Part shown: in pieces, positions 24,404-43,395 of the stretch
Position numbering within the stretch: the first letter of the stretch is position 1
How the letters are laid out: every line of letters starts with the position of its first letter
Assembly (NCBI RefSeq): GCF_000746255.1
Contig: NZ_JQKW01000008.1
Coordinates: 1-64,000, forward strand
Length of the DNA stretch: 64,000 bases
Source of the DNA: Thermodesulfobacterium hydrogeniphilum
Lineage (GTDB): Bacteria; Desulfobacterota; Thermodesulfobacteria; Thermodesulfobacteriales; Thermodesulfobacteriaceae
Reading direction: 5' to 3'
The notes under the pieces: generated by a model
What the model was told of the DNA's origin: nothing
Databases searched by the model: none
Seen by the model: only the letters and a program-made list of their open reading frames with translations
Translations under genes and position numbers: made by a program

Positions 24404-25240
24404 CTAACTTATATTATGGTACTTCCTTGCTTCTGAAAGCCATTCCATAAATAAAGCAAGAAAAACTGCCATAAAAAGAGAAGAAATAAATGTTACAGCA
24501 ATTATGAGAACTCTTTTAGGCTTGTAAGGTTTATCAGGGATAATAGGATCATTCAGGGGCACAAGAACCTTCCTTACAAACTCCTTTTCCAATTTTAACC
24601 GCTCAATTCTTGCCTGTAAATCTATAATTTTCTCTTCAATTTCCACAGGATTAAAGCCAAGATACAGCTCTCTTTTATTCTCAAACTTATTATATAAAAT
24701 TGTTCGTAATTTTTTTAGCTTCTCAATATTTCCTTCTATATTTTTTATACGTGTGTCTATCTCTCTCAACCGTTGATTTGTAACCATTTGAGTATATGGA
24801 TTTTCCTTTATGTAAGATAGTACACTATTTATAACTTGTGGAATCAAAGTTCTATCATAGGTATATACTTCAAGAGAAAAAACATTTTTAGATTTATTTC
24901 TTCTATCAACCTTTAATTTTATCTCTTTTATCTTTTTAACATTTTCCAAAGATAGTTTCAACTCTTTACTAATTTCTTCGTATTCTTTATCTTTTAAAAG
25001 ATTGTTTAAATAATTTACCATTGCCTTTATCTCTTCAAAACTAATACTTCCAGATCTTCTAAGAGCTATCTCTGATTTATATACAGGAGAAAGAAAAAAA
25101 CTTATTATTCCAGCCAAAAATGTCACAATTACAACAAATCCCACTATGAATTTAAAATGTTTTTTAAGCTTTAAATATATTTCATAAAGATCTATTTCAT
25201 CTTCCATGTAGGTTTCAAATTTGTTCTTCTCCTGCACCAC
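24404..25240 (-). CDS. Wzz-type polysaccharide chain-length determinant / copolymerase
   Basis: 278 residues. An N-terminal helix (FKFIVGFVVIVTFLAGIISF, about 30-50) and a C-terminal helix (about 250-270) flank a periplasmic coiled-coil region. The proline-rich PDKPYKPKR before the second helix is the classic Wzz signature. There is no C-terminal tyrosine kinase domain. It would set polymer length for the Wzx/Wzy pathway encoded here. Confidence 0.9.
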   Translation of the reverse strand: MVQEKNKFETYMEDEIDLYEIYLKLKKHFKFIVGFVVIVTFLAGIISFFLSPVYKSEIALRRSGSISFEEIKAMVNYLNNLLKDKEYEEISKELKLSLENVKKIKEIKLKVDRRNKSKNVFSLEVYTYDRTLIPQVINSVLSYIKENPYTQMVTNQRLREIDTRIKNIEGNIEKLKKLRTILYNKFENKRELYLGFNPVEIEEKIIDLQARIERLKLEKEFVRKVLVPLNDPIIPDKPYKPKRVLIIAVTFISSLFMAVFLALFMEWLSEARKYHNIS

Positions 25241-25616: not shown

Positions 25617-27044
25617 TTAATAAGCTCCTTCTCTTTTCAAAACTACTTTGATAGTTTTAAAAAGTATAATTATATCAAGCCAGAGGGACCAATTAAGAAC
25701 ATACCAGGTATCAAGTTTTACACGAAAATTATAATCCGTATTACTTCTACCACTAACCTGCCACAAACCAGTAATACCAGGTTTAACCATATAATAAAAT
25801 TCCGCGAATTCTTTATAATATTTATCCAGCTCTTCTTTAACCACAGGCCTTGGACCAACAAAACTCATATCTCCTATTAACACATTAATCACCTGGGGTA
25901 GCTCATCTAAGGAAGTTTTTCTTAAAAATTTTCCAACCCGAGTTACTCTCGGATCGTTTTTTAATTTAAAATAAGTTTCCCATTCTTTTTTTGCTTGTGG
26001 ATCAGTTTCCAAAATTTTTTTTAATCTTTCTTCTGCATCTACATACATAGTTCTAAATTTTATTACTTTAATTTCTTTGCCACCTTTACCAATTCTTCTA
26101 TGAACAAAAAACACAGGCCCTTCAGAGTCAAGTTTTATTAAAATACCTATTGCTAAACAAAAAGGAATAAAAATAGGCAAAATTAACAACCCCAAAGTTA
26201 AGTCAAAAATTCTTTTAATCATCTGATTTAATTTTGATTGTAAATTGTTATTTATTTTCAACAAAAACAATTGTTCCATAAAAAGATAGTAAATTTTGCT
26301 ATTCATTAAGGCTATCCCTTTTAATTCTGGCACAACGAAAACCTCTTTTACATACCTTTGAACGAAGTTAACGAGCTTACAGAGATCTTCTTTAGAAAGC
26401 GAGGGAATGGCAATTATTACTTTTTGAACCTTGTCTTTTTCAATTATTTGCGGCAATTCTCTTATTTTTCCTAAAATTTTATAAACTTTATCGTTTACTT
26501 TTACATCTCTTTCTCCATTTTCCACTTTATCGTCAATAAAACCCACCAATTGATAGCCTAAATACCGATCTCCTTCTATCTCTCGAGCAACAGCTTTTCC
26601 AGCATTTCCAGCACCAATTATTAAAATTTCTTCTCTCCCAATTTTTAACTTACTCAACAGGATTTTTTCAATGTACCTAAAAAATGGAAATACAAATAAT
26701 GCATAAAACCAAAGAAAAACTAATACCAATCTTGAAATTTTATCTGACATTTTTCCCAAAGATACTATAGCAAAGGTAACGATAGCTGCAATGGTTGTTG
26801 CCTTAACTATCTGACGCGCCTCTTCCCAAAAAGGTAATCGCTTAGTATAAAGTCCTTCATATCCTATAAAAAAAATATAAATTAATGGGATCCACCAAAG
26901 CTTTACGAAGTAAAACAGATGTAATGTAAAACTAACTTTAATATATTTTGATAAAGATAAATCTAAAACTTTCCTGGTGTAATAAGCCAAAAGAAGAGAA
27001 ATATAGAAAGCCAAAGTATCAATTATTAAAAGGAGTAAACTCAT
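25617..27044 (-). CDS. Initiating sugar-phosphate transferase (WbaP/WcaJ-type)
   Basis: 475 residues. Four to five N-terminal helices, a Rossmann-like CoA-binding domain (LIIGAGNAGKAVAREIEG, about 135) and a C-terminal bacterial sugar transferase domain: a re-entrant helix (about 280-300), then IKFRTMYVDAEERL, TRVGKFLRKTSLDELPQ, MSFVGPRPV and KPGITGLWQVSGR. It attaches the first sugar-1-phosphate to undecaprenyl phosphate, starting the repeat unit. A second possible initiator (WecA-like) lies at 36096. Confidence 0.93.
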   Translation of the reverse strand: MSLLLLIIDTLAFYISLLLAYYTRKVLDLSLSKYIKVSFTLHLFYFVKLWWIPLIYIFFIGYEGLYTKRLPFWEEARQIVKATTIAAIVTFAIVSLGKMSDKISRLVLVFLWFYALFVFPFFRYIEKILLSKLKIGREEILIIGAGNAGKAVAREIEGDRYLGYQLVGFIDDKVENGERDVKVNDKVYKILGKIRELPQIIEKDKVQKVIIAIPSLSKEDLCKLVNFVQRYVKEVFVVPELKGIALMNSKIYYLFMEQLFLLKINNNLQSKLNQMIKRIFDLTLGLLILPIFIPFCLAIGILIKLDSEGPVFFVHRRIGKGGKEIKVIKFRTMYVDAEERLKKILETDPQAKKEWETYFKLKNDPRVTRVGKFLRKTSLDELPQVINVLIGDMSFVGPRPVVKEELDKYYKEFAEFYYMVKPGITGLWQVSGRSNTDYNFRVKLDTWYVLNWSLWLDIIILFKTIKVVLKREGAY

Positions 27045-27072
27045 TATCCCTCTCCTTTACTCACTTTCTCTA

Positions 27073-27340
27073 GGACTGTCCATCCATTTGTGTAAATTTT
27101 ATTATAGCCTATCTTCAAATAAAATCACTATCTGGCTGTAGATATGTGGCCAATCCTTAATCTTGGTCCATTTACGTTCCAGCTCCATAGCTGCCATATA
27201 TCTTCTGCTGCTTTCCTAAATTTGCTATTTACACTCTCTATAATATTTGTAGTATACATAACCCGCCTTATCTCTAACGGATATCTGAAAAATGCTGTAA
27301 GTGTATTCCAGTTTGTCTCCCAACTCTTTACCACATGTGA
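27073..27340 (-). pseudogene. IS256-type transposase remnant A, C-terminal part with internal deletion
   Basis: Begins at the terminal sequence GGACTGTCCATCC. Read on the minus strand: WETNWNTLTAFFRYPLEIRR, then YTTNIIESVNSKFRKAAE, typical of the IS256/Mutator C-terminus. A junction after RKAAE shifts frame; in the other frame the real C-terminal sequence continues as MAAMELERKWTKIKDWPHIY and ILFEDRL. The same junction occurs in copies B (33844) and C (35837). Confidence 0.85.
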
Positions 27341-27429: not shown

Positions 27430-27783
27430 TTAAAAATACCTAAAAAATACTCCTATCCTTTCTCCGAAGACTGGTTAGAAGAAATTGTTAAATCTATTCA
27501 ACAGCAAAAATCTCAAGGACTTAAGCCCATCCTTCTTTATCTCCTTCAGTGCCTTCTAAACTCCATCATGCTTAAAGAAAAAGAACTTTTCCTTAAATCT
27601 CACCTAGAAAACTCCTCAAATGGCTTCTACCACAGAAACCTTTACCTCTCCTTCGGTAACCTTAATCTTGAAATCTCTCGTGTCAGATTCGGCAACTCCT
27701 TCCGACCCTCTATCCTTCCCCAGGTTTTGAATTTATATTTTTTGATAATACTTTTCAACCTCTTGCCCAGAGGGTATAATTAG
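27430..27783 (+). pseudogene. IS256-type transposase remnant, N-terminal part, opposite orientation
   Basis: The plus-strand frame gives YPFSEDWLEEIVKS, then LKEKELFLKSHLE, NGFYHRNLYLSFGNLNLEIS and RFGNSFRPSILPQ, the usual IS256-family N-terminal pattern (RNGYYxR...G.L.L..PRDR...F.P.I.P). No ATG lies in frame at the true start, and the reading loses homology after ILPQ (about 27725). It is oriented opposite to remnant A, so two copies or an inversion are involved. Confidence 0.75.
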
Positions 27784-28203
27784 TGAAACACTATGCCTGA
27801 ATCTCTTTTCTCATTCAAGAAACATCTTCAATAATTTATTAACTTCATTTCTCGCTTAATATCACTATCTATAAATAAACAAATCTTCTCAATCATACCA
27901 ACATAAGGCAAAAATTTCGTCATATAAATACTCAGTTAATAACTTTTTCCGTCTATTTTAAGACTTCTTAGCTCCTGTCTTTTGATTATGAAAAAAAGAA
28001 TATAGGTATTCATTTTCCATAATCTTATGAGGTTTAACTTAGGGCAAATATTCGCAAAGGAGCTTTATTTTTTCTTTTAAAAATCCGAAGTTTTGTTATA
28101 ATATTTTACGTGTAAGAGTTTAGGCATAAGTAAAAAAGATTAGCAAGGGTTTAGACATTAAAATAACGGAGCGGAAAGAAGAATTAAGAACATTTGTTGA
28201 TTT
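27784..28203. other. 420-bp gap upstream of the flippase gene
   Basis: No intact gene. On the minus strand a broken frame (MENEYLYSFFHNQKTGAKKS, then after a stop KKLLTEYLYDEIFALCWYD) may be a gene fossil of unknown family. A plus-strand TATAAT at 28097-28102 could be the -10 of the following operon; the -35 is poor. Confidence 0.35.
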
Positions 28204-29619
28204 ATGAGAATGTTTCAAGAGGGTATTGAAATTTTGATCAGAAATCGGGGTAGCTCTGGAACGAAAATTATAGAAAAAATAAAGACCAAATTATCTGGAG
28301 ATATACATTTCAAAGAACTTGTCCAGGGTGGGTTAACTTTTCTTATTTTACGAATTCTTGGAATGGGGGTAGCTTATGCTTTTACTTTAACAGTAACAAG
28401 AAATCTTGGGGCTTCTGCCTGGGGTATATTTGCTTTAAATTTTACCGTTCTCCAGATAACATCTGTAATAGGAAGGCTTGGACTTGATACGGCACTCCTA
28501 AGATTTATAGCCGAGTATAACGCTCAAGGTAAAGGAAAAACCGCAAAATATGTATACTTTAAATCAATAAGCCTGGTTATTCCATTTTCCTTAACCCTTT
28601 CGGTAACTCTTTATTTTTTAGCACCTATATTGGCTGAAAGTGTTTTTAATAAGAAGTATTTAAATCCTTATATAAGACTGATGGCTTTTGGAGTCTTACC
28701 TTTCACATTGCTTTTTATAAACTCTGAGAGCTTGAGGGCGTTTAAGAAAATAAAAGAGTACACTACTTTTCAAAATTTATTTCCTTTCTTGGTAGCTCTA
28801 TTTGTAGTTTGGACAAGTTTTACATTTCTAAACTTTAAGAAGACTGAACTTGTTCTGATTGCTTTTATACTTGGTATAGTTACATCCCTTATTTTTAGCT
28901 CAGTATTCCTCTGGAAGGAATTAAAGAAACTCAGCGGAAAGAAGGAAAATATTAACATAAGATATATACTTTCAGTTTCTTTTCCTATGCTCATGTCAAG
29001 CTCTTTAGCTTTTATAATGGCCTGGACAGATACTATAATGCTGGGTATTTTTAGAACAGAAGAGGAAGTGGGAATTTACAATGTAGCTGTTAGACTGTCC
29101 ATGATTACAAGCTTTACTCTTGTAGCTATAAACTCCATTGCCGCTCCCAAATTTGCCGAGTTTTGGGGGAAGAAAGACATCAAAGGTCTTGCAAGAGTTG
29201 CCCAGCAATCAACAAAGCTGATATTTTGGACTTCTTTTCCGGTATTACTAATTTTTTTAATCTTTCCGAAACCGATACTTTACATATTTGGAGAGGAATT
29301 TAAAACTGGAGCATTAGCATTGATGATTTTAACAATTGGACAATTTGTAAATGCAGCTGCCGGGAGTGTAGGGTATATACTACAGATGACGGGTCATCAA
29401 AAATTTCATCAAAATGTTGTGCTGATAGGAACATTGTTGAATATACTACTAAATTGGATGCTTATTCCAGCATATGGAATTGTGGGTGCAGCTATTGCAA
29501 GTGCTATAAGTATGATTTTTTGGAATATAGTTTTTAGTGTAAAGGTTGCTTCTATATTGAACAAATCAATTTTTTATATCCCTTTTTATAGGGAAAAGTT
29601 CGATGACCAGTATAGTTGA
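28204..29619 (+). CDS. Wzx-type flippase (MOP superfamily)
   Basis: 471 residues with about 12-14 hydrophobic helices after a 45-residue cytoplasmic N-terminus. LTVTRNLGASAWGIFALNFT and LLRFIAEYNAQGKGK fit the RfbX/Wzx group. It should flip lipid-linked repeat units across the inner membrane. First gene of a five-gene plus-strand block, opposite to the rest of the locus. The start lacks a clear ribosome binding site; the ATG at 28210 is an alternative. Confidence 0.88.
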   Translation: MRMFQEGIEILIRNRGSSGTKIIEKIKTKLSGDIHFKELVQGGLTFLILRILGMGVAYAFTLTVTRNLGASAWGIFALNFTVLQITSVIGRLGLDTALLRFIAEYNAQGKGKTAKYVYFKSISLVIPFSLTLSVTLYFLAPILAESVFNKKYLNPYIRLMAFGVLPFTLLFINSESLRAFKKIKEYTTFQNLFPFLVALFVVWTSFTFLNFKKTELVLIAFILGIVTSLIFSSVFLWKELKKLSGKKENINIRYILSVSFPMLMSSSLAFIMAWTDTIMLGIFRTEEEVGIYNVAVRLSMITSFTLVAINSIAAPKFAEFWGKKDIKGLARVAQQSTKLIFWTSFPVLLIFLIFPKPILYIFGEEFKTGALALMILTIGQFVNAAAGSVGYILQMTGHQKFHQNVVLIGTLLNILLNWMLIPAYGIVGAAIASAISMIFWNIVFSVKVASILNKSIFYIPFYREKFDDQYS

Positions 29620-30547
29620 AAAACAAACAAAAGCAATTCAAAATAATGGAAGGGTTAAAGTAATCTATATTGCTGGTGAAGGGAGAAGTGGAAGTACTTT
29701 ACTAGAAAGAATATTAGGACAACATCCCAAAATATTTGCTGCTGGGGAACTTAAACATATATGGGAGAGAAGCTTTATAGAGAATCAACTTTGTAGTTGC
29801 GGAAAAAGCTTTTACGATTGTGATTTTTGGAAGCTTGTGAGAAAGAGATTCCATGAATATTATGGTGAAATTGATTATAAAAGCGTCATAGAAGCTTTTA
29901 AAAAGACCTGCAGAATTAGGCATTACTTGTTTAGAAAAAATCTCAACAATAAACATTCAAAATTTATAAATGGAGTTTATCTGGCATTGTATAAAGCTAT
30001 ATCAGATGTTTCAGGGAAGGAGTTTGTTATAGATGCTTCTAAACACCCTGTATTTGCTCATATATTGGCTCAAAATCCAGCAATAAAGTTATATGTAATC
30101 CATTTAATAAGAGATCCCCGAGCAGTAGCATATTCGTGGCAAAAGAAAAAGATTAGACCCGAAATAACAGATAGGGTTGAGTATATGCCCAGGTATTCTA
30201 TAGTTAGAAGTGCGGTTTCATGGGGTATTGTTAATAAAATAAGTTATAATCTTTCAGAGTTTGATAATATCAAATATATCTTAATTAAATATAAAGATTT
30301 AATTTTTGATCCTAAAAATACATTATTGAAACTTTATAAGTTTTTAAACATTAAAGAAAATTTTGAGAGTTTATTTTTAGATGAAAAAACGATCTTTTTC
30401 TCGAAAAATCATACAGTAGCAGGGAATCCAATAAGATTTAAGGTAGGAAGAATACAATTAGAAATGGATAATGAATGGAAAGAAAAAATGCCGAGATATA
30501 AACAGCTTTTAGTATATTTATTAGTAGGGTTAATGTTTTCTCCCTGA
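29603..30547 (+). CDS. PAPS-dependent sulfotransferase family protein
   Basis: 314 residues. The 5'-phosphosulfate loop YIAGEGRSGSTLLERILGQHP is near residue 26 and the 3'-phosphate motif HLIRDPRAVAYSW near residue 170, both diagnostic of the Sulfotransfer family. FAAGELKHIW and CSCG follow the first motif, as is common in this group. It probably adds sulfate from PAPS to a sugar of the surface polysaccharide. Overlaps the flippase gene by 17 bp. The donor could come from CysC at 54724. Confidence 0.9.
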   Translation: MTSIVEKQTKAIQNNGRVKVIYIAGEGRSGSTLLERILGQHPKIFAAGELKHIWERSFIENQLCSCGKSFYDCDFWKLVRKRFHEYYGEIDYKSVIEAFKKTCRIRHYLFRKNLNNKHSKFINGVYLALYKAISDVSGKEFVIDASKHPVFAHILAQNPAIKLYVIHLIRDPRAVAYSWQKKKIRPEITDRVEYMPRYSIVRSAVSWGIVNKISYNLSEFDNIKYILIKYKDLIFDPKNTLLKLYKFLNIKENFESLFLDEKTIFFSKNHTVAGNPIRFKVGRIQLEMDNEWKEKMPRYKQLLVYLLVGLMFSP

Positions 30548-30571
30548 ATCAAAAAATTTTTATGAGATATT

Positions 30572-31855
30572 ATGCAATTATTTGTAATTTTGATTAGCCT
30601 TTTTTATATTTTATATCCTTATCAAGATATATACATTTTAGCTAAACATATAAAACTATATTATTTAGTTTATGTTATATTGGGATACTTCATTTTGCTA
30701 TTAACGATTTCAAATATAAAAATTTTTTTATTAGCAAAAAAATATTTTCAATTTTCAATTATTTATTTTTTGTTAATGATCTGGTTTATGCTTAGTATTA
30801 CTTGGAGTGTAGATCCAAATAGGTCTATTTTTGTTTGGATAAAATATTTTATCTATTTTACAATAGGTTTTATCTTATTTATATTGTTGAGTATTAACTT
30901 TACGAAAACTATTGCTATTATTGCGAAATCAACATTTGTTTCGTCTATAATTATTTCTTTTGCTTATCTTTTAAAATTTGCTAAGTATGGAATTTTAATT
31001 TTAACTTCAGGAAAGGCTACAATGGCCAATATTGCTTCAATTGCATCTATAAATGTGGGTTTTGGTGGAGGAAGAAATCTTTTAGCATCTTGGATAACTT
31101 TTTCTCTCACATTTGCATTTCCTATATTGTACACTCAGGTATCAAAAAAAATTAAAATCGTGTTATTATTTGGAGTATTAGTCAATTTTATTGTAATTAT
31201 ACTTACTCTTTCTAGAACTTCTCAGTTAGCATTGTTAATATTTGCATTGTTACTAATTTTTTATAACGAAAAAAATATTTTAAAAAATTTATCTATAAAG
31301 ATGCTATCTAGTTTATTTGGTTTGCTAATTATTATTATCTTCAATCCTATCAATTTAAGAAATTTTCTATTCAACAGATTTATCCTTGCTATAAAATCAT
31401 TAGCAGGAGAGATAGAAGATTATGGAGTACTTGGAAGAATAGAGTTATGGACTTATGCAATTAAAAGCATAGAAGAAAAATTTTTTACAGGAACAGGAAT
31501 CGGGACTTTGTATGGAGGATTGAATGAAATAGGAGGTGTTCAAAACTATCATAATGTATTTTTGCAATTTTTTGCTCAAATAGGATTTATAGGATTTATA
31601 TTATTTGTAATTTGGACATTATGGCTATTTATTATGGCTTATAAACTTCATAAATTTTACTTTTTTAATTTTAGATTAAAGCTTATAGCTTACATAATAT
31701 TGCTTAATTTTATTGTATATTATTTTAAATCATTGTTAATGTTTCAATATTTTGACTTAGAGATTTGGACAATTATACCAACTATTTTCGCACTTTATTA
31801 TTTGAAAGAAAAAGTTCAAAATGAAAAGTATATGTGTTCTAATTCCTCATTTTAA
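30572..31855 (+). CDS. O-antigen/exopolysaccharide polymerase (Wzy/O-antigen ligase family)
   Basis: 427 residues, 10-12 hydrophobic helices. The periplasmic loop with FTGTGIGTLYGGLNE and QNYHNVFLQFFAQIGFIG is the Wzy_C signature. It polymerises or ligates repeat units. Very AT-rich codon use, like its neighbours in this block. Its 3' end overlaps the next gene by 35 bp. Confidence 0.87.
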   Translation: MQLFVILISLFYILYPYQDIYILAKHIKLYYLVYVILGYFILLLTISNIKIFLLAKKYFQFSIIYFLLMIWFMLSITWSVDPNRSIFVWIKYFIYFTIGFILFILLSINFTKTIAIIAKSTFVSSIIISFAYLLKFAKYGILILTSGKATMANIASIASINVGFGGGRNLLASWITFSLTFAFPILYTQVSKKIKIVLLFGVLVNFIVIILTLSRTSQLALLIFALLLIFYNEKNILKNLSIKMLSSLFGLLIIIIFNPINLRNFLFNRFILAIKSLAGEIEDYGVLGRIELWTYAIKSIEEKFFTGTGIGTLYGGLNEIGGVQNYHNVFLQFFAQIGFIGFILFVIWTLWLFIMAYKLHKFYFFNFRLKLIAYIILLNFIVYYFKSLLMFQYFDLEIWTIIPTIFALYYLKEKVQNEKYMCSNSSF

Positions 31856-32609
31856 TGATATAGAAGGATTAGAAAAATCATTAGCTTCCATATCTGATTT
31901 AGAACCAGTAGATGTTGTAATTGTAGATGATGGAAGTAAGATCAAGCCTAATTTAGAGAATTTGCGAAATAAGTATAAACAAATAAATAATATCTACATA
32001 TTAAACAACAAAAAAAATAGAGGGATAGAATACGTTTTAAATCAAGGTTTGCAATTTATCAAAGAAAGAAGATACAAATATGTAGCAAGGCTTGACTGTA
32101 GGGATATTTGTCATCCCGAGAGGTTTAAGATACAAAAGCAGCTTTTAGAAGAGAATCCAGATATATATCTTGTAGGAACATGGGTTGAGTTTGTTAATAA
32201 AAATGGTAAAAGAATTTTTTTCTTTACCCCCCCCACCGAACATGAGGAAATTAAAAAGAAAATGTTTATAAATAATATGTTTATCCATCCTTCAGTGATG
32301 TTTAGAACACAAGCAATTGATATTATTGGGTACTATCCAACAGATAGAAAAAATGCAGAAGATTATGCTTATTTTTTTAGATTTGTAAGGAATTTTAAAA
32401 CAGCAAATATAGACAAGATTCTTTTAAAATGTGAGGTTAATCCTGCAGGACTTTCATTAAGTAAAAGGAGACTTCAGATAAAGAGTAGAATCAAAGTAAT
32501 ACTGGATAATTTTGATTTGTCTTTTTACGCTTTTTATGGGCTGTTTAGAAATTTGTTACTTTTGTTTATTCCGTATAAATTAGTAGAACTTTTAAAGAGG
32601 CAAAAATGA
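31821..32609 (+). CDS. Glycosyltransferase family 2
   Basis: 262 residues, GT-A fold: CVLIPHFNDIEGLEKSLASI, VDVVIVDDGSKIKP, KNRGIEYVLNQGL, and RLDCRDICHPERFKIQ in place of the usual DxD region. Adds one sugar of the repeat unit. Overlaps the genes on both sides (35 and 4 bp). Confidence 0.88.
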   Translation: MKSICVLIPHFNDIEGLEKSLASISDLEPVDVVIVDDGSKIKPNLENLRNKYKQINNIYILNNKKNRGIEYVLNQGLQFIKERRYKYVARLDCRDICHPERFKIQKQLLEENPDIYLVGTWVEFVNKNGKRIFFFTPPTEHEEIKKKMFINNMFIHPSVMFRTQAIDIIGYYPTDRKNAEDYAYFFRFVRNFKTANIDKILLKCEVNPAGLSLSKRRLQIKSRIKVILDNFDLSFYAFYGLFRNLLLLFIPYKLVELLKRQK

Positions 32610-33691
32610 AAATCGTTCATATTGTTGAACCATTTGCTGGTGGTACTTATGATTTTTTAGTAGATTTAACTAATAATCTTTCTGAATATAGACATATAAT
32701 TATTCATGGTAAACGGGAAAATACACCTGAAAATTTTGAAAAAGATTTCCCTCCGGGAACAGAATTTATATATTGGCAAAATGCTACAAGAGAAATAAAC
32801 CCTAAAAAAGATTTAAATGCCTTATTTGAATTATTGAGTATTTTAAAGAAAATAAACGATATAGATATAATACATCTACATTCTTCCAAAGCAGGTTTTT
32901 TGGGGAGGCTTGTTGCAAGGATTTTGGGTTTATCAGATAAGATTATTTATACATCTCATGGAGTTTCTTTTCTTAGGAAAGATGTTTCTAAATTAAAACA
33001 GAGAATGTTTGTATATCTTGAAAAATTTGCTACAAAATTAGGTGGTAGAGTTGTTGCATGTTCAAGGTCAGAGGCAGAAGAGTTCAGAAAATACGGGATA
33101 AATGCAGAATACATTTACAATGGAGTTGATTGCGGATTTGTAAACTATAGAAGAGATCAAAATAAAAATATAATTATAATAGGAACCATCGGAAGAATAA
33201 CCTATCAAAAAAATCCAATTTTATTTAATGAGATTGCTGAATATTTTTCTAATAAAAAGAATGTTAAATTTTTATGGATTGGAGACGGGGAATCAAAAGA
33301 AGAATTAAAATCCAAAAATATAGAAATAACTGGTTGGCTACCTAAAGAAAAGGTTAGCAATTATTTGAATAGCATTGATATTTATCTCTCAACATCACTA
33401 TGGGAAGGATTGCCTTTATCAGTATTACAAGCAATGTGTAAAGGAAAACCTTTGGTTCTTTCTGATTGTGTTGGGAATAGAGATTTAGTTAAAAATAATG
33501 TTAACGGTTTTCTATATAAGACGAAAGAAGAAGCTATTAAAAATCTTGAAAAACTAATTTGTGATAGTACCCTTAGGTTAAAATTTGGACAGGCATCTTT
33601 AAATATTGTTAAAAAAGATTTTTCTGTTAAAAATACAGTAAGTAGGTATAAAGAGCTATATAAAAAGGTTAAAAATAGTAAAGATAGTTAA
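32606..33691 (+). CDS. Glycosyltransferase family 4 (GT-B)
   Basis: 361 residues. Nucleotide-sugar domain motifs IGTIGRITYQKNP, TGWLPKEKV and TSLWEGLPLSVLQAMCKGKP (the EX7E region) place it in GT4/GT1-like GT-B enzymes. Last gene of the plus-strand polysaccharide block. Confidence 0.88.
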   Translation: MKIVHIVEPFAGGTYDFLVDLTNNLSEYRHIIIHGKRENTPENFEKDFPPGTEFIYWQNATREINPKKDLNALFELLSILKKINDIDIIHLHSSKAGFLGRLVARILGLSDKIIYTSHGVSFLRKDVSKLKQRMFVYLEKFATKLGGRVVACSRSEAEEFRKYGINAEYIYNGVDCGFVNYRRDQNKNIIIIGTIGRITYQKNPILFNEIAEYFSNKKNVKFLWIGDGESKEELKSKNIEITGWLPKEKVSNYLNSIDIYLSTSLWEGLPLSVLQAMCKGKPLVLSDCVGNRDLVKNNVNGFLYKTKEEAIKNLEKLICDSTLRLKFGQASLNIVKKDFSVKNTVSRYKELYKKVKNSKDS

Positions 33692-34176
33692 CCAAAGAAA
33701 ATTGAATTATCGTGATATTTCGTTAATTATGTCTTAAAAATATTTTATCATACTATCCCTTGTAACCAATAGATCAAAAAGTTTGCCGAAACAGATAAAT
33801 TGAAAATTTGGATGTTGTTTGGAAGGAAGAAGTCTCTCCTATAGGACTGTACACCTATTTGTGTAAATTTTATTATAGCCTATCCTCAAATAAAATCACT
33901 ATCTGGCTGTAGACATGTGGCCAATCCTTAATCTTGGTCCATTTACGTTCCAGCTCCATAGCTGCTATATATCTGCTGTTGCTTTCCTAAATTTGCTATT
34001 CACACTCTCTATTGTGTTCTTCGTATACATTGAAAGTGCTCTCTTGTTTGTGCAATTTTTTATAATCTACCTCACAAAGTAAAGCTATATGTGTATCCAC
34101 AAATGCTCAACATTTAATAAGCTAACAACATTTATTCCCAAACTTCAATCCTATAATATATAGCCTTCACCTATCC
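33692..34176. other. 485-bp gap carrying IS256-type remnant B
   Basis: Unremarkable AT-rich sequence to 33843. Remnant B (33844-34031) follows, then about 145 bp of non-coding sequence before the ATPase stop. Confidence 0.7.
33844..34031 (-). pseudogene. IS256-type transposase remnant B
   Basis: Same outer end (GGACTGTACACC variant) and the same internal-deletion junction as copies A and C. The minus strand retains MYTKNTIESVNSKFRK and, out of frame, the ELERKWTKIKDW C-terminal segment. It has several point differences from A, and inner homology ends near 34031. Confidence 0.82.
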
Positions 34177-35223
34177 TCATACTACCTCCTTTATCGCCCT
34201 CCATAAAAGCCTGCTCTGGGGTCTAACTGTCCCCTCCATCGGATTGTAAAAAAGTACATTTTCCTCTATCCAAAAAAGTAGCTTATCAAAATGTTCTTCA
34301 AACTGATTCTTTGTTGTCTCCCAATGCTCCTTAAAATTTAAAAGAAGGCTCCAGATCTCTTTGCCATCCTCTCTTTTTTTGAGTTTCTTAAGCTTAATCC
34401 ACTCAAGCCTTGCCCTTTCATTCTTAAGCATCCTCTTTAAAGCCTCTTCCTCCTTATAGCTCCTTTTCTTCTCCTCAAACAAACTTACCATATCCCCTAT
34501 CTTCCCACCTATATAATCCCACACAAGCTCTTTATTTCCAAAACCAAATTCTTCATACACCCTAAAAGCCTCCTCCTTCCCCAAATCATCCACAAGAATG
34601 TACTTTGCCCTACCCTCAAGCCGAGCATTACTATACACATCCTCTATAAACAAACAATCACTCGTCGCACACAAACAGTGACATAAATGCGTTTCCTTTG
34701 TCATTCCTACTAAAAAATTAAACAACTCATGAATCACAGGTTTCCCTACAGTGTTTATCACCTCCTTTATACTCTGCATCTCATCAAGCACAAACACAGG
34801 CACATCTCCACACTCTCTTATACCCTCAAATATTCCCTCTAAATACTTAAATATATTCTCCACCTTTTTCTCACCAAAAATTACATCAAATATCCTTTCA
34901 GGAATAGGTATCCCCTTAAATCTTTTCACCGCCCGTGCGCTCTCCTTAAAAAACTCCGTTATTATCTCCCGTATATCTTCCTGATACTCACCCCTCCTTA
35001 TATCAAAAAGCACCTGTAATAAATTGTTAATATCTGCTACATACCTCCACCTAAAATTTATGTAAAACACCCTATAATTTTCAGGGAGTTCCTCAAATAC
35101 CTTTATAAGAAGGGCTGTTTTTCCACTATTTATCGGCCCATACACAAAATAAACAAAATTCGGCTCCCCGCTCAAAACTGCTTTCATCTCCTTTATATAT
35201 CTCTCTCGATTGTAAAATGGCAT
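34177..35223 (-). CDS. Archaeal-type AAA ATPase
   Basis: 348 residues. Opening MPFYNRERYIKEM, Walker A YGPINSGKTALL near residue 30, Walker B PVFVLDEMQS near residue 145, then a winged-helix-like C-terminal half with VWDYIGGKIGDMV. This is the ATPase family common in archaea and thermophiles, which often multiplies and sits near insertion sequences. Cellular role unknown. Sandwiched between IS remnants B and C together with a truncated paralogue. Confidence 0.85.
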   Translation of the reverse strand: MPFYNRERYIKEMKAVLSGEPNFVYFVYGPINSGKTALLIKVFEELPENYRVFYINFRWRYVADINNLLQVLFDIRRGEYQEDIREIITEFFKESARAVKRFKGIPIPERIFDVIFGEKKVENIFKYLEGIFEGIRECGDVPVFVLDEMQSIKEVINTVGKPVIHELFNFLVGMTKETHLCHCLCATSDCLFIEDVYSNARLEGRAKYILVDDLGKEEAFRVYEEFGFGNKELVWDYIGGKIGDMVSLFEEKKRSYKEEEALKRMLKNERARLEWIKLKKLKKREDGKEIWSLLLNFKEHWETTKNQFEEHFDKLLFWIEENVLFYNPMEGTVRPQSRLLWRAIKEVV

Positions 35224-35746: not shown

Positions 35747-36095
35747 CTAAAACAACTTCTTCCCTTTAAATAGTTTTTCTATTCCTTGGTAATATTATTT
35801 TAACCAGCTTCTACACTCTTTTCAACTAAAATTTTAGGACTGTCCATCCATTTGTGTAAATTTTATTATACTTTATCTTCAAATAAAATCACTATCTGGC
35901 TGTAGATATGTGGCCAATCCTTAATCTTAATCCATTTACGTTCCAGCTCCATAGCTGCCATATATCTTCTGCTGCTTTCCTAAATTTGCTATTTACACTC
36001 TCGAATTGTACTAAAATTTTAAATAAAGCATTTAGAGTGCCCAAAATTTGGGGGTATTGTACCACTATCAGCTACCAGTACAAACAGAATAAGTT
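35747..36095. other. 349-bp gap carrying IS256-type remnant C
   Basis: Apart from remnant C (35837-36002) I see no gene or strong signal here. Confidence 0.6.
35837..36002 (-). pseudogene. IS256-type transposase remnant C
   Basis: About 165 bp nearly identical to remnant A, from GGACTGTCCATCC to the ESVNSKF codons. It has the same deletion junction and stops abruptly at CACTCTC. Confidence 0.82.
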
Positions 36096-38182
<2,087 letters not shown>

Positions 38183-38189
38183 TTAAAAA

Positions 38190-38393
38190 TTATTCATGTC
38201 TCCCATAAATATCATCAATTCTTATTATATCATTTTTTTTCTAAATATTCTACGCTTTGCACCTCAATTATTTCTGAAGGAATCTTACCTGGATTCTCAA
38301 AGCGATGCGAAACTGTATAGCTCCCCCAGGGTCTAAGAAACTGTTTTATACTTAAGCACACTTGGATGTCCGTCTTTCTTAAGCAAATTCACT
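38190..38393 (-). pseudogene. manC remnant with internal deletion
   Basis: Matches the 3' end of the intact manC (45099-46526) in two blocks. One encodes HRFENPGKIPSEIIEVQS (against HRIENPGRIPLEIIEVQS) followed by a frameshifted DDIYGRHE. The other covers the segment around AAGCACACTTGGATGTCCGT, with a run of about 40 identical bases. Roughly 185 bp between the blocks (45232-45418 in manC) is deleted. The remnant abuts the truncated PIN toxin at 38389. Confidence 0.88.
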
Positions 38394-38568
38394 TGATTTT
38401 ATTTAATTCTCTCTTGTTAAGTGTGCCATAATATAATTCCATTAGTGTAATAGCACTTAATGCTATATTTGTCCTTTCTAATTTATCAAAAATCTTTTTT
38501 GTAGTTTCGTTGCCCTTTAAGTATTCTATAATTACATCTGTATCACATAAAATTTTTACATTCTCCAT
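38389..38568 (-). pseudogene. Truncated PIN-domain (VapC-type) toxin
   Basis: 59 residues, MENVKILCDTDVIIEYLKGN then ITLMELYYGTLN, the N-terminal half of a VapC ribonuclease with the first catalytic Asp and Glu. The rest, with the later acidic residues, is replaced by the manC remnant; the stop TGA lies at the join. Its start overlaps the antitoxin gene by 13 bp, as in intact vapBC pairs. The attC site that should follow is lost. Confidence 0.85.
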
Positions 38569-38750: not shown

Positions 38751-38822
38751 AATTTTCTCCTTTTTTATCTCTTAAGTTTTAAATTTCTTGCTATCTTCAT
38801 TTTAGCATATTCTTTAAACTTT

Positions 38823-38880
38823 TCTACCGTCAAAACTCAGCAGCAGGCGGGAAGGTCGTCTGCTGAAGGGGATTGTTAGA
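38823..38880 (-). other. attC1, integron recombination site (R' core mutated)
   Basis: 58 bp. Minus strand begins TCTAACAATCCCC and ends GACGGTAGA; the usual end in this array is GTTAGA, so GTT has become GGT in the R' core. The central part is close to attC2. Confidence 0.85.
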
Positions 38881-38901
38881 GGTTATTTCTATTATATATC
38901 T

Positions 38902-39267
38902 TTATCCCTTTAATTCGTTTAAATGTGCTTCATTCAATGTTATTATTGGGAACTTCATTTCTAAAGCTGTTGCTCCTATAAAAATATCTCTAAACTCTAT
39001 TAGTTGATTATTAAGCTTCAGTTCTTTATAAATCTCAGCAGAACATTGAGCTATCTCATTTGTAAACGGTATTATTTCCAATCACTTCAGTAATTTTTCT
39101 AAATCTTCCTTGTGCCTCTTGGTGATAGCTCCGGCGTATAACTCAAACACAGTTATAGTTGAAATAAAACAATTAAAATCTAACTCTTTTAGTTTCCATA
39201 AATAACTATTTTGTTTCTTTTGTTTCCGCAAAAATTCTATTATTATGCTGGTATCAACTAGGAAGTA
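38902..39267 (-). pseudogene. PIN-domain toxin with in-frame stop and no start codon
   Basis: The minus strand reads YFLVDTSIIIEFLRKQ, then ISTITVFELYAGAITKRHKE, then TGA (39082-39084) where a Trp codon would fit, then LEIIPFTNEIAQ and IEFRDIFIGATALEMK to a TAA at 38902. All PIN acidic residues remain, but the frame begins directly after a stop with no ATG/GTG/TTG. Toxin inactivated while its antitoxin is intact. Confidence 0.85.
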
Positions 39268-39271
39268 TTAT

Positions 39272-39493
39272 TTAAATTGTTTCTATTTTCAATTTATCTA
39301 TTCTTACTTCAACCTCATTTTCTAAATGATCCCATACTGAAATACTTAAAAAATCTTTTTTCCAATCCTCAGATCTTTTTTCTTTAATTTTTTTCTTTAA
39401 TATTTTCACTATCTTTTCTTCAAGCTCTAATAATTCTTCTATAGTAAGATTTGACAGTCTTTGTTCTATGTTATTTAAGGATAATCCAAGCAT
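39272..39493 (-). CDS. Antitoxin partner of the decayed PIN toxin
   Basis: 73 residues (MLGLSLNNIEQRLSNLTIEE ...), helical with a lysine-rich middle. Ends just upstream of the toxin frame. Preceded by the cassette promoter at 39523-39550. Confidence 0.72.
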   Translation of the reverse strand: MLGLSLNNIEQRLSNLTIEELLELEEKIVKILKKKIKEKRSEDWKKDFLSISVWDHLENEVEVRIDKLKIETI

Positions 39494-39522
39494 AATTTTT
39501 TCTCCAAAGCTTTTTGATTTTC

Positions 39523-39550
39523 ATTTTAAGACTTTTTGATAATTTTTCAA
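39523..39550 (-). promoter_or_regulatory. Cassette promoter next to attC2
   Basis: TTGAAA directly after the R' core, a 16-bp spacer, TAAAAT. Drives the antitoxin/PIN cassette. Confidence 0.6.
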
Positions 39551-39608
39551 TCTAACGCCAAAACTCAGCAGCAGGCGGGAAGGTCGTCTGCTGGAGAGGG
39601 TTGTTAAA
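39551..39608 (-). other. attC2, integron recombination site
   Basis: 58 bp. Minus strand begins TTTAACAACCC and ends GGCGTTAGA, with arms around GCAGACGACC / GCTGCTGAG that pair imperfectly. Sister of attC1. Confidence 0.9.
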
Positions 39609-39610
39609 GG

Positions 39611-39847
39611 TTAATCTGTTTCAAATTCTTCTCTTGGTAGCCCGGACTGTCTTATAATAGACATTAACGTCCCTTTTTTAATTTCTTTATGGTCTGGGAC
39701 AGGAACTGTAATAGTACTTTTTCCAATTTGTTTTTGCATTACTATATGACTTCCCTTTTTTCTTACCTCTTTAAACCCATATTTTTGAAGTATCTTACAA
39801 ACTTCTCTGCCAGAAAGGACTTTCAGCTTCGACAATTGATACCTCAA
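39611..39847 (-). CDS. hicA: HicA-type mRNA interferase toxin
   Basis: 78 residues. LSGREVCKILQKYGFKEVRKKGSHIVMQ carries the double-stranded RNA-binding-like fold and the catalytic GSH; ITVPVPDHKEIKKGTLMSI and IRQSGLPREEF complete the family pattern. The usual PVH reads PVP-D-H here. The frame overlaps hicB by 53 bp if the ATG at 39847 is used; a later GTG or TTG start is possible. Confidence 0.88.
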   Translation of the reverse strand: MRYQLSKLKVLSGREVCKILQKYGFKEVRKKGSHIVMQKQIGKSTITVPVPDHKEIKKGTLMSIIRQSGLPREEFETD

Positions 39848-40049
39848 AAGGAGATATATATATTTCCTCTTTTAATCTTTCTTTTATTTCTTCAGGTGAT
39901 GCACACTCAAAAAAAAGAGTTACAGCTTCTTCTAAATTCTTTTTTGCTTCTTCAATTGTATAACCCTGACTTGCTATATCCAATTCAGGACATAACGCTA
40001 CAAACATATCATCTTCTTTTTGAATTATAGCTGTAAGTTTATATTTCAT
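39795..40049 (-). CDS. hicB: HicB-type antitoxin
   Basis: 84 residues. MKYKLTAIIQKEDDMFVALC, CPELDIASQGYTIEEAKKNL and LEEAVTLFFE are the HicB partial RNase-H-like fold. Gene order antitoxin-toxin. Same cassette as hicA at 39611. Confidence 0.88.
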   Translation of the reverse strand: MKYKLTAIIQKEDDMFVALCPELDIASQGYTIEEAKKNLEEAVTLFFECASPEEIKERLKEEIYISPFEVSIVEAESPFWQRSL

Positions 40050-40076
40050 ACTTAAATAATAAACTACAAATTCCTT

Positions 40077-40104
40077 ATTTTACAAGTATTTTTTAATGAA
40101 TTTT
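40077..40104 (-). promoter_or_regulatory. Cassette promoter next to attC3 (weak -35)
   Basis: -10 TAAAAT at the same offset from the R' core as in other cassettes; the -35 position reads AAAATT. Confidence 0.4.
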
Positions 40105-40162
40105 TTTAACGCTCAAACTCAACAATGGCGTGTGACACCGTCCGCTGAAGTGGGTTGTTAGG
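40105..40162 (-). other. attC3, integron recombination site
   Basis: 58 bp. Minus strand begins CCTAACAACCC and ends GCGTTAAA. The inner arms share the GGACGG/TGTCAC type centre seen in attC5, 9 and 10. Confidence 0.88.
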
Positions 40163-40163
40163 A

Positions 40164-40272
40164 TTATAAAAGTTGCAAAAATTCTTCCATACTTAATCCT
40201 GCCTGTTTTAGTATATGAGACAAAGTTGATCTTTTAATCGGTTTGTGGGCAGGTACTATTAATATAATTTAA
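40164..40272 (-). pseudogene. Truncated hicA, C-terminal remnant
   Basis: The minus strand gives IVPAHKPIKRSTLSHILKQA then GLSMEEFLQLL and a stop, the C-terminal third of a HicA toxin. An in-frame TAA precedes it and the catalytic GSH half is missing. Follows an intact hicB, so this cassette keeps only the antitoxin. Confidence 0.85.
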
Positions 40273-40286
40273 ACTGGGAATTTTAC

Positions 40287-40496
40287 TCATAAAGTTAACT
40301 CAATTATTTCGGCTTTTTTTTCTGCAAAAGGAATTAAATCATCTTCTACTGGTTCAAGATATAACTCTATTGCTTCTTTGATGTTTTTAATAGCCTCTTC
40401 TACAGTATCACCTTCACTAATACATCCTGGCAAACTCGGAACATATACAGTATATCCACCATCTTCACTTGGTTCTAAAACGATTTTAAGTTTCAT
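40287..40496 (-). CDS. hicB: HicB-type antitoxin, orphaned
   Basis: 69 residues: MKLKIVLEPSEDGGYTVYVP, SLPGCISEGDTVEEAIKNIK, EAIELYLE. Typical short HicB without a DNA-binding tail. Its toxin is truncated. Confidence 0.9.
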   Translation of the reverse strand: MKLKIVLEPSEDGGYTVYVPSLPGCISEGDTVEEAIKNIKEAIELYLEPVEDDLIPFAEKKAEIIELTL

Positions 40497-40531
40497 TTTT
40501 TTACCTCGACTGGGTTATGTGCTTATTTAAA

Positions 40532-40559
40532 ATTCTAATCTTTTTTAAAAATTTTTCAA
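40532..40559 (-). promoter_or_regulatory. Cassette promoter next to attC4
   Basis: TTGAAA, 16-bp spacer, TAGAAT, directly after the R' core. Confidence 0.6.
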
Positions 40560-40617
40560 TCTAACGCCTAAGCTCAGTAGCGGGCAATTATCCCGTCTGC
40601 TGAAGAGGGTTGTTAGA
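40560..40617 (-). other. attC4, integron recombination site
   Basis: 58 bp. Minus strand TCTAACAACCC ... GGCGTTAGA with the centre GACGGGATAATTGCCCGC. Identical over all 58 bp to attC7. Its first TAA is the stop codon of the hicA gene at 40613. Confidence 0.92.
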
Positions 40618-40825
40618 GTAAATTTTCTTTTCCTTTATCAATAATTTCAAATAATTGCTTTACAATTTTAGGATGTAATGTCTTTCCGCTATGGAAAGGT
40701 AAAACAAAGCGTTTATTTCCTTTTATATAAATTCTATGACTTCCTTTGCTTCTAATTAATTTAAAACCAGCCTGTAATAATAACTTTTCGGCTTCAACAG
40801 CAGTTAATCTTGGTAGTTTAGGCAA
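40613..40825 (-). CDS. hicA: HicA-type mRNA interferase toxin
   Basis: 70 residues. LTAVEAEKLLLQAGFKLIRS, KGSHRIYIKGNKRFVLPFHS (catalytic GSH), then GKTLHPKIVKQLFEIID. Intact. The stop codon lies inside attC4. Overlaps hicB by 8 bp. Confidence 0.92.
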   Translation of the reverse strand: MPKLPRLTAVEAEKLLLQAGFKLIRSKGSHRIYIKGNKRFVLPFHSGKTLHPKIVKQLFEIIDKGKENLL

Positions 40826-41036
40826 CTTTTACCTCTAAAGAAGTGGTTAAAATCTCCTTGTTTAATAAAACTTTCTTTTCTTCTTCGTCTAAAGTTTCTA
40901 AATATAATTCTACAGCTTCTTTGATATTTTGTAGAACTTCATCTAAAGTATCTCCCTGTGTATGACAGCCTTTTAGTTCAGGACAGTAAGCATAGTATCC
41001 AAACTCATCTTTTTCTATTATTACCGTAACTTTCAT
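40818..41036 (-). CDS. hicB: HicB-type antitoxin
   Basis: 72 residues: MKVTVIIEKDEFGYYAYCPE, LKGCHTQGDTLDEVLQNIKE, AVELYLETL. Intact partner of hicA at 40613. Starts only 26 nt after the attC5 core, with no room for its own promoter, so it may be read from upstream. Confidence 0.92.
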   Translation of the reverse strand: MKVTVIIEKDEFGYYAYCPELKGCHTQGDTLDEVLQNIKEAVELYLETLDEEEKKVLLNKEILTTSLEVKVA

Positions 41037-41062
41037 TTTCTTCCCTCACAAATTTAATTTTT

Positions 41063-41120
41063 TCTAACGTCAAAACTCAGCGGCAACGTGTAACGCCGTC
41101 CGCTGAAGTGGGTTGTTAGG
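41063..41120 (-). other. attC5, integron recombination site
   Basis: 58 bp. Minus strand CCTAACAACCC ... GACGTTAGA, centre GGACGGCGTTACACGTTGCC. Its TAA is the stop of the gene at 41116. Confidence 0.92.
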
Positions 41121-41385
41121 TTTTTATAATCTTTTCATATTCTGAATGTTTTCCTATCCAAAACCAAATAATACCTTCATCAATTTCTATACCGATAGCT
41201 CTATATTTTTTGCCCACTTGAACTGACCAATATCTACCGACCTTCTTTAAATGTAATGAGGGATAATATGGGTTTTCCTTTAAAAGTTCGAAGTTTTTAT
41301 CTGCTAATTTTTTTATATTTTCAGGCAATTTTTCGTATTCTTCCCAAAAAGACGGACTTGCATAATGTTTTAGAGCTCCCGACAT
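41116..41385 (-). CDS. RelE/ParE-superfamily toxin
   Basis: 89 residues: SPSFWEEYEKLPENIKKLAD, NFELLKENPYYPSLHLKKVG, YWSVQVGKKYRAIGIEID, IIWFWIGKHSEYEKI. The arrangement of helices, HLKK and the YRA..... strand followed by WIGKHxEYE is typical of RelE-fold toxins. Overlaps its antitoxin by 16 bp; the stop lies in attC5. Confidence 0.85.
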   Translation of the reverse strand: MSGALKHYASPSFWEEYEKLPENIKKLADKNFELLKENPYYPSLHLKKVGRYWSVQVGKKYRAIGIEIDEGIIWFWIGKHSEYEKIIKT

Positions 41386-41567
41386 TTACCTGCTTGGAAA
41401 TCTTTAATAGCTTGTTCTGCTAATTTATCCAGTTTGCCTAATCTAACATCTCTCTCAAATTCTTGATCCCAAAGTTTTTGTTCGTAATCCTCTATCCATT
41501 TTAAAAGAATTTTTAAATCTTTTTCTGGTAATTTTTTAATATTTTCAATTATTTCATAAACTTGCAT
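41370..41567 (-). CDS. Antitoxin of the RelE/ParE-type pair
   Basis: 65 residues, MQVYEIIENIKKLPEKDLKI then LLKWIEDYEQKLWDQEFERD, acidic and helical. Sits upstream of and overlaps the toxin gene. GGAGT precedes the ATG. Confidence 0.78.
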   Translation of the reverse strand: MQVYEIIENIKKLPEKDLKILLKWIEDYEQKLWDQEFERDVRLGKLDKLAEQAIKDFQAGKCREL

Positions 41568-41596
41568 AGGATACTCCTTAAAATTTTTTATTTTTT

Positions 41597-41624
41597 ATTT
41601 TAAAACTTTTCAGAATTTTTTCAA
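41597..41624 (-). promoter_or_regulatory. Cassette promoter next to attC6
   Basis: TTGAAA, 16-bp spacer, TAAAAT, directly after the R' core. Confidence 0.6.
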
Positions 41625-41683
41625 TCTAACGGCTAAGCTCAGCGGCGGACGGATACGCCGGTCCGCTGAAATGAGTTGTTAGG
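41625..41683 (-). other. attC6, integron recombination site
   Basis: 59 bp, the only site not 58 bp long. Minus strand CCTAACAACTC ... GCCGTTAGA with the strongly pairing centre GCGGACCGGCG / TCCGCCGC. Its TAA ends the gene at 41679. Confidence 0.92.
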
Positions 41684-41972
41684 TTCTAAATCTTTTCTCA
41701 ATTTTTTTAGGATCTTGCCTACAATCTAAAATTGCATATACTATAACTTCATCCTTTTCAAGTTTATAATATATTGCATAAGGAAACCTTTTGGATAACA
41801 TTCTATAGAATCCCCAAAACTTTTGATGAACTCCTGCATATAAATGTAGAGATTCAATGTCAGAAAATAATGAATTTAAGAAATAATCACCTAATCCTTC
41901 CTTTTGTTTTTCATAAAAAGCATAACCTTCCAATAAATCCTGTTTAGCAGATTCAAGAATTTTTATTTTCAT
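41679..41972 (-). CDS. ParE/RelE-type toxin
   Basis: 97 residues from the second ATG (MKIKILESAKQDLLEGYAFY). EGLGDYFLNSLFSDIESLHL, FYRMLSKRFPYAIYYKLE and AILDCRQDPKKI are the ParE-like pattern. Start choice: the ATG at 41978 is also possible. Stop in attC6; overlaps the antitoxin gene. Confidence 0.88.
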   Translation of the reverse strand: MKIKILESAKQDLLEGYAFYEKQKEGLGDYFLNSLFSDIESLHLYAGVHQKFWGFYRMLSKRFPYAIYYKLEKDEVIVYAILDCRQDPKKIEKRFRT

Positions 41973-42180
41973 CAACAATTTTCAAAATGTCTTTTTTAGC
42001 TTCCTGCCAGCTTAAAATTTTTTCTTTATTTTCTTTTACTCTTTTTTCTCTTACTAATAATTCATCTTTATGCCAGTCTGGTGATGGAACATCTTTTTCT
42101 GTTTTTAATAAATCATTCCATATAAATTCTATTAGTTTAAGTTTGTCTTCAACTGTTAAATTGTTAAGTTGAATCTGCAT
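41953..42180 (-). CDS. Addiction-module antitoxin (CHP02574-like)
   Basis: 75 residues. LTVEDKLKLIEFIWNDLLKT and LSWQEAKKDI match the short putative addiction-module component family that pairs with ParE/RelE toxins. AGGAGG lies 4 nt before the ATG. Confidence 0.87.
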   Translation of the reverse strand: MQIQLNNLTVEDKLKLIEFIWNDLLKTEKDVPSPDWHKDELLVREKRVKENKEKILSWQEAKKDILKIVDENKNS

Positions 42181-42227
42181 TTTACCTCCTGAGTTAAATT
42201 TTGTACTTATTTATGTGCTTATTTAAA

Positions 42228-42255
42228 ATTCTAATCTTTTTCAAAAATTTTTCAA
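42228..42255 (-). promoter_or_regulatory. Cassette promoter next to attC7
   Basis: TTGAAA, 16-bp spacer, TAGAAT. Part of a 103-bp stretch (42211-42313) matching 40515-40617 with one mismatch. Confidence 0.6.
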
Positions 42256-42313
42256 TCTAACGCCTAAGCTCAGTAGCGGGCAATTATCCCGTCTGCTGAA
42301 GAGGGTTGTTAGA
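42256..42313 (-). other. attC7, integron recombination site
   Basis: 58 bp, identical to attC4. Its TAA ends the gene at 42309. Confidence 0.92.
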
Positions 42314-42593: not shown

Positions 42594-42597
42594 ACTC

Positions 42598-42855: not shown

Positions 42856-42869
42856 ACTTGATTTAAATT

Positions 42870-42897
42870 ATTTTAGAATGCTTTAAAAATTTTTCAA
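42870..42897 (-). promoter_or_regulatory. Cassette promoter next to attC8
   Basis: TTGAAA, 16-bp spacer, TAAAAT. The expected transcription start lies only a few bases before the ATA codon of the DUF4160 frame. Confidence 0.6.
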
Positions 42898-42955: not shown

Positions 42956-42961
42956 ATTAGA

Positions 42962-43309: not shown

Positions 43310-43335
43310 CTTTTGTAATATCTTTTTTATTTTTT

Positions 43336-43393: not shown

Positions 43394-43395
43394 TT

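Follow-up and report, generated by a model that had tools for sequence, protein, structure and literature searches.

An inverted and probably imported Wzx/Wzy-type block within a stacked surface-polysaccharide locus of Thermodesulfobacterium hydrogeniphilum

Gene content of the block and of the surrounding locus

The window analysed here, i.e. bases 1–64,000 of a 200-kb contig from the 1.69-Mb genome of Thermodesulfobacterium hydrogeniphilum, contains a 31-kb polysaccharide locus bracketed by yebC and rluD, in which one block of genes (28,204–33,691) runs against all other glycan genes (Table 1). The block consists of five intact open reading frames (ORFs) arranged head to tail on the plus strand, all scoring above the Pfam cut-offs in a profile search: a flippase (Wzx) of the Polysacc_synt/MATE kind, which we take to be RfbX-type, a sulfotransferase, an O-antigen polymerase-type protein (Wzy) and two glycosyltransferases, of family 2 (GT2) and of GT4 type. 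Three neighbouring pairs overlap (29,603 < 29,619, 31,821 < 31,855 and 32,606 < 32,609), as in a single operon. Every glycan gene between 24.4 and 55.3 kb outside the block lies on the minus strand, and this set comprises wzz, the genes for the WbaP-type and WecA-type transferases, galE, manC, three glycosyltransferase and two methyltransferase genes, a second flippase gene and cysC. The original prediction, made from the sequence of the window, had described this strand split and a block endowed with its own Wzx and Wzy; both points hold, with the proviso that PF04932 (Wzy_C), described as O-antigen ligase, does not separate polymerases from ligases and that the best NCBIfam match of the block protein falls far under the family cut-off. 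As in Wzx/Wzy-dependent loci, the flippase of the Polysacc_synt/MATE kind is accompanied in the locus by an initiating sugar-phosphate transferase and Wzz. The block itself is devoid of an initiating transferase, of Wzz and of sugar-nucleotide and 3′-phosphoadenosine 5′-phosphosulfate (PAPS) genes, so that for these functions it would depend on the neighbouring minus-strand genes.

Table 1. Features of the polysaccharide locus and its remnants (window coordinates; nt, nucleotides; aa, amino acids)
Feature	Position	Strand	Evidence or remark
Wzz chain-length protein (anchor)	24404..25240	-	PF02706
WbaP-type initiating sugar transferase (anchor)	25617..27044	-	TIGR03022, 483.7 bits (cut-off 403)
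Mutator-family transposase, C-terminal remnant	27068..27340	-	PF00872 positions 306-350/379, above cut-off; direct repeat
Probable mutator-family transposase, N-terminal remnant	27448..27783	+	PF00872, 16.5 bits, below cut-off of 21
rmlD tail	28133..28205	+	RmlD residues 255-278, in frame; 82% over 55 nt to G008 rmlD
Wzx flippase of the block	28204..29619	+	PF01943 (Polysacc_synt), PF13440, PF01554 (MatE)
Sulfotransferase	29603..30547	+	PF13469 (Sulfotransfer_3), PF00685 (Sulfotransfer_1)
O-antigen polymerase-type protein (Wzy, or ligase)	30572..31855	+	PF04932 (Wzy_C)
Family 2 glycosyltransferase (GT2)	31821..32609	+	PF00535 (Glycos_transf_2)
GT4-type glycosyltransferase	32606..33691	+	PF00534 (Glycos_transf_1), PF13439
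Transposase-end remnant	33839..34012	-	direct repeat of 27068-27241, 94% nt
Archaeal-type ATPase, between two transposase ends	34177..35223	-	PF01637
Third transposase-end remnant	35835..36002	-	97% nt to 27071-27238
WecA-type initiating transferase (anchor)	36096..37172	-	PF00953; TIGR02380 below its cut-off
galE	37169..38158	-	TIGR01179, 496.9 bits (cut-off 262.3)
Partial second manC copy, far side of array	38196..38437	-	manC residues 329-360, 430-455, 455-469
Cassette array: ten attC-like sites, toxin-antitoxin and other small genes	38817..43981	-	
manC	45099..46526	-	PF01050, PF00483
EpsG-like polymerase pseudogene	48762..49970	-	PF14897 positions 127-324/326, below cut-off
GT2 stump	51322..51480	-	PF00535 positions 1-41/168
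Second flippase, intact	52666..54159	-	PF13440
Third-flippase stump, N-terminal, 117 aa	54156..54509	-	PF01943 positions 1-87/274
Second rmlD tail, before third-flippase stump	54547..54593	-	96% over 48 nt to G008 rmlD
5′ stump, flippase of the block's family	54593..54710	-	79% nt over 119 nt to 28266-28384
cysC, APS (adenosine 5′-phosphosulfate) kinase: PAPS supply	54724..55326	-	PF01583

The minus-strand part also shows the damage that had been announced, namely, next to an intact second flippase gene, a frameshifted EpsG-like polymerase gene whose upstream part is scattered over shifted frames, and PF01943 and PF00535 stumps. Behind cysC, the remnants follow each other in the order (i) stump of the block's flippase family, (ii) rmlD tail and third-flippase stump, (iii) second flippase and dead polymerase. 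Since the cysC-side stump belongs to the block's own flippase family, a module of that kind sat there before; and since the minus-strand module looks imported (see below) and lies behind this stump, several layers are stacked at the cysC end.

The block is enclosed, as predicted, by insertion-sequence remnants: transposase ends assigned by profile to the Transposase_mut (mutator) family, presumably IS256-type, occur on both sides. The three ends at 27.1, 33.8 and 35.8 kb are direct repeats of each other (91–97% identity over 168–175 nt), and the repeat has two further matches elsewhere in the genome (169 and 87 nt), near which no transposase ORF of at least 80 aa was found. A composite transposon of the IS256 type was considered and is unsupported, the three copies being transposase fragments only and not a pair of intact insertion sequences. 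Note that a partial second archaeal-type ATPase gene adjoins the first between two of the transposase ends (34,177–35,746, minus strand).

Site occupancy, relatives and module edges

Among 13 same-genus genomes compared, seven were readable on both sides of the locus site, and none of the seven carries the locus there. In four of them (G001, G007, G010 and G013, where the far side of rluD was also read), yebC and rluD lie about 4–5 kb apart with housekeeping genes between them; in the other three (G004, G008 and G009), each of the two genes has other housekeeping neighbours. The rest were readable on the rluD side only (G003), or either lay close to a contig end at one flank or were not read at both flanks (G002, G005, G006, G011 and G012). 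An arrangement fixed across the genus, which the original prediction had named as the finding that would overturn it, is thus not what these genomes display. Compared with G001, G007, G010 and G013, the rluD–ribD segment is inverted with respect to yebC (window 18,720–24,143 and 55,789–60,032), which places the locus at a rearrangement point as well. Among the matches listed, no paper title in the Thermodesulfobacterium, integron or O-antigen/polysaccharide literature concerned this locus.

The block flippase has no close relative in the 13 same-genus genomes, the two matches (G007 and G008) being 23–24% identical. Relatives that are 64–67% identical occur in three genomes, all from a single other genus of the family, and others are found in contigs of metagenome-assembled genomes titled Patescibacteria (56%) and Aquificaceae (64%). 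Similarly, the second flippase finds no match at E 1e-20 in the 13 genomes, and the block sulfotransferase has weak matches in three of them (best E 1.7e-8), besides another copy, 34% identical, on contig C8 of its own genome. Judged from these comparisons, neither module looks resident in the genus.

The coupling of flippase and sulfotransferase recurs in these relatives. Close examination of four other full-length loci of the family (L016, L017, L025 and L026) placed a sulfotransferase gene downstream of the flippase gene in each of them; in a fifth relative, L018, the sequence stops within the flippase. cysC lies upstream of the flippase in L016 and L018 and is not near L025 or L026, while L017 begins just before the flippase. 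A wider survey, from which the seed loci were left out, searched 395 genomes of the phylum, 52 of which gave a match, and 37 further loci were read. A sulfotransferase-like ORF was found at 12 of the 17 nearer and 5 of the 20 farther flippase loci (Fisher p 0.009, or 0.022 without one weak match), counts to be read with the following limits: the relatives are not independent of each other, the script missed the flippase ORF in one locus per group, and some flanks are cut by contig ends.

The edges of the modules carry a trace of a further gene. Directly upstream of the block flippase lies an in-frame rmlD tail whose stop codon overlaps the ATG of the flippase, and another rmlD tail precedes the third-flippase stump. 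The upstream stretch had also been examined as a toxin–antitoxin remnant or a leader element, both of which were discarded upon comparison with G008, another species of the genus, where rmlA, rmlC, rmlB and rmlD are followed by inserts, a repeated rmlD tail and a flippase gene. Both tails of the window are closer to the rmlD of G008 than to the intact rmlD on contig C6 of their own genome, with scores of 47.3 bits (28,133–28,205) and 76.8 bits (54,547–54,593); each beats 300 of 300 dinucleotide shuffles, the best of which reached 41.7 bits. From their sequence, they look like scars of imports from rmlD–flippase loci of other lineages. In G008 itself (L029 12931–17023), the second rmlD 3′ tail measures 129 nt, is 93% identical and stands just before the flippase, and the insert between rmlD and this tail encodes a PIN-like protein and an AAA_14/DUF4143 ATPase. 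The cysC of G008 is broken into two frames, and one partial attC-like match separates it from a neighbouring WecA-type gene (L079 14139–16147).

Origin of the block

The original prediction read the locus as the replacement of an old serotype module by an incoming one. Its first half, module exchange, is supported because the locus is missing from this site in the seven relatives readable on both sides, neither flippase could be matched to a close relative within the genus and foreign-looking rmlD tails mark two edges. Its second half, a single step from old to new, is unsupported because the minus-strand module looks imported too and lies behind a stump of the block's family: in our reading, the resident locus has itself built up from older imports. 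Altogether, we consider it likely that the block was acquired from another thermophilic lineage, that it represents the variable core of a surface-polysaccharide locus of the Wzx/Wzy type and that it became lodged, in inverted orientation, amid decayed transposase ends in the interval separating the WbaP-type gene from the WecA-type gene.

Several observations weigh against this interpretation. Sequence composition does not mark the block as foreign: by codon distance to 53 host genes, its five genes lie between the 26th and the 81st percentile of length-matched host genes, and the block and the minus-strand module have tetranucleotide distances of 0.216 and 0.177, respectively, compared to 0.184 ± 0.048 for 62 host windows. 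The comparison of the two modules proposed in the original prediction cannot separate them and decides in neither direction; the ATPase at 34,177–35,223 alone stands out, at the 98th percentile of codon distance, as foreign in composition. Moreover, the rmlD tail of the block is short (55 nt, 82%) and, at 47.3 bits against 41.7, moderately above the best shuffle; the Wzy_C family covers ligases too; a donor with the whole five-gene block was not found among the sequences compared; terminal repeats and target duplications were not established for the transposase ends, target duplications not having been looked for. Finally, a strictly adjacent sulfotransferase was counted at 7 of the 17 nearer and 3 of the 20 farther loci of the survey (the last of these three by motif only), which is not significant (p 0.14).

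From the gene set and its layout, we infer the activity of the locus, the sulfation of its product, the division of labour between the strands, the import route and the order of events, along the following lines. A minus-strand initiating transferase would load the first sugar on the lipid carrier, and the GT2 and GT4 enzymes of the block would extend this lipid-linked sugar. CysC would make PAPS, with which the sulfotransferase would sulfate a sugar; the block Wzx would then flip the unit and the block Wzy polymerise it under the control of Wzz. As for the import, it may have proceeded by recombination at shared edge genes and at the transposase repeats.

The main competitor of import is a move within the chromosome: the block would once have been the resident module next to cysC, would have left its place behind the stump at 54.6 kb and re-entered in inverted orientation at 28 kb, and nothing would have been imported recently. 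The cysC-adjacent stump does belong to the block's flippase family, has no DNA match at E 1e-3 among the other flippase loci retrieved and forms inverted arms with the block. However, the block flippase is preceded by an rmlD tail and not by cysC, no flippase of its family exists in the 13 same-genus genomes, and the two copies differ by 21%, a divergence that may stem in part from decay of the stump; we regard such a move as unlikely. An inversion between the arms at 28.3 and 54.6 kb, after which cysC and flippase would again be neighbours, would also flip 26 kb of other genes and is not favoured. Slightly less probable still is that the cell uses both modules and makes two glycans, one per module: the second flippase and several minus-strand glycosyltransferases are intact, yet the only polymerase candidate on that strand is frameshifted, and one GT2 and two flippases are reduced to stumps.

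The opposite orientation of the block, together with the inverted arms at 28,149–28,384 and 54,547–54,710, might also evoke a phase-variable invertible segment, a hypothesis to which we give very little credence given that the repeats flanking the block are direct, not inverted, and that the arms, 75–84% alike, enclose 26 kb (no specific search for an invertase was made). An assembly artefact at repeats is just as improbable, although copies of about 170 nt border the block and recur in other parts of the genome: the contig extends for 200 kb, the repeats differ from each other by 3–9% and the composition matches that of the host.

The cassette array, gene-edge copies and known systems

Besides polysaccharide genes, the locus harbours a cassette array in a region (38–45 kb) that was also considered as a set of decayed genes, an explanation we rejected. 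As in integrons, attC-like sites alternate with small genes (HicA, ParE-type, PIN and others); four of the sites were also folded, with RNA parameters as a proxy. No integron integrase (TIGR02249) scored above the cut-off in the 14 genus genomes searched; the own genome has a 48-aa C-terminal integrase stretch on contig C11, and two attC-like sites lie no more than 3 kb from it. Both here and in G008, the array has glycan genes next to it. All ten core genes compared between the two species are 68–82% identical in DNA, versus 94–98% for seven stretches of cassette DNA, whose order differs; an eighth row (85% over 102 nt) was a cross-match of a repeat and was not counted. Cassette or attC-like DNA also lies outside the window at L029 688–3820 and L092 4121–5334.

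The two minus-strand manC copies at 38,196–38,437 and 45,099–46,526 are placed as if the array had entered at manC. In L026 (8780–15330) and L016 (8313–11311), fragments of the flippase 5′ end are repeated beside the intact gene, with toxin–antitoxin genes between them in L026; these repeats were tried as attC sites in L026 and turned out to be coding fragments of the flippase. Copies of gene edges thus flank several inserts, involving manC in the window, rmlD in G008 and flippase 5′ ends in L026 and L016. It is conceivable, if rather improbable, that swaps of glycan modules and insertions of toxin–antitoxin/attC DNA, which leave a common scar (intact gene, insert and partial copy of the gene edge, as seen with the rmlD tail of G008, with manC in the window and with the flippase 5′ ends of G019 and G023), share an undescribed route capturing circular DNA at gene edges, with toxin–antitoxin cassettes mobile between species helping to fix new glycan modules. 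A link of this kind would connect mobile toxin–antitoxin cassettes with unstable glycan loci.

The presence of a sulfotransferase (29,603–30,547) and of a PAPS-making APS kinase (54,724–55,326) is that expected of a sulfated-polysaccharide locus, and the block may well make and export a sulfated glycan with PAPS supplied by cysC. The probable sulfated glycan would be a variable coat, the locus offering a genetic basis, open to testing, on which coats could vary in hot environments, and the flippase a candidate lineage tied to sulfated units. Truncated remains of earlier modules persist in the region, so that a single chromosome records how the surface coat changed in successive rounds; exchange of surface-glycan modules has been documented mainly in pathogens, and here it is readable layer by layer in a thermophile.

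Among the systems that most resemble this one, the Thermodesulfatator-type loci L016, L025 and L026 combine a flippase 62–64% identical to that of the block with a downstream sulfotransferase and, in L016 and L026, also carry stumps of the flippase 5′ end, but they have other sulfotransferases and neighbouring genes and no inverted block. According to PMC11641403, the sulfated capsule locus of Vibrio sp. KMM 8419 contains cysC and sulfotransferase genes together with rml genes, a Wzx-linked sulfotransferase is proposed for the O-antigen of the same strain, and the cysC–sulfotransferase pairing is called a hallmark of sulfated polysaccharide synthesis. The locus described here likewise has cysC and a sulfotransferase inside a polysaccharide locus; it differs in having flippase-type export and a sulfation that is only predicted, whereas an ABC transporter is proposed and the structure solved for the Vibrio polysaccharide (PMC11641403). 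In the galactose-initiated O-antigen clusters of Salmonella, as presented in PMC3715488, Wzx/Wzy systems are modular with wzy remnants, an H-repeat remnant marks the junction of a recombinant cluster and recombination junctions fall within rml genes. The modular Wzx/Wzy organisation, the wzy remnants, the junction remnant and the junctions at an rml gene are all shared with the present locus. In Salmonella, however, the core occupies a conserved chromosomal site (PMC3715488), whereas the present locus has an inverted core, a genome-specific site and a stack of several flippase stumps. In conclusion, this locus belongs to the known biology of polysaccharide loci and is distinguished by the inversion of its core, by the stacking of stumps and by the group of its host.

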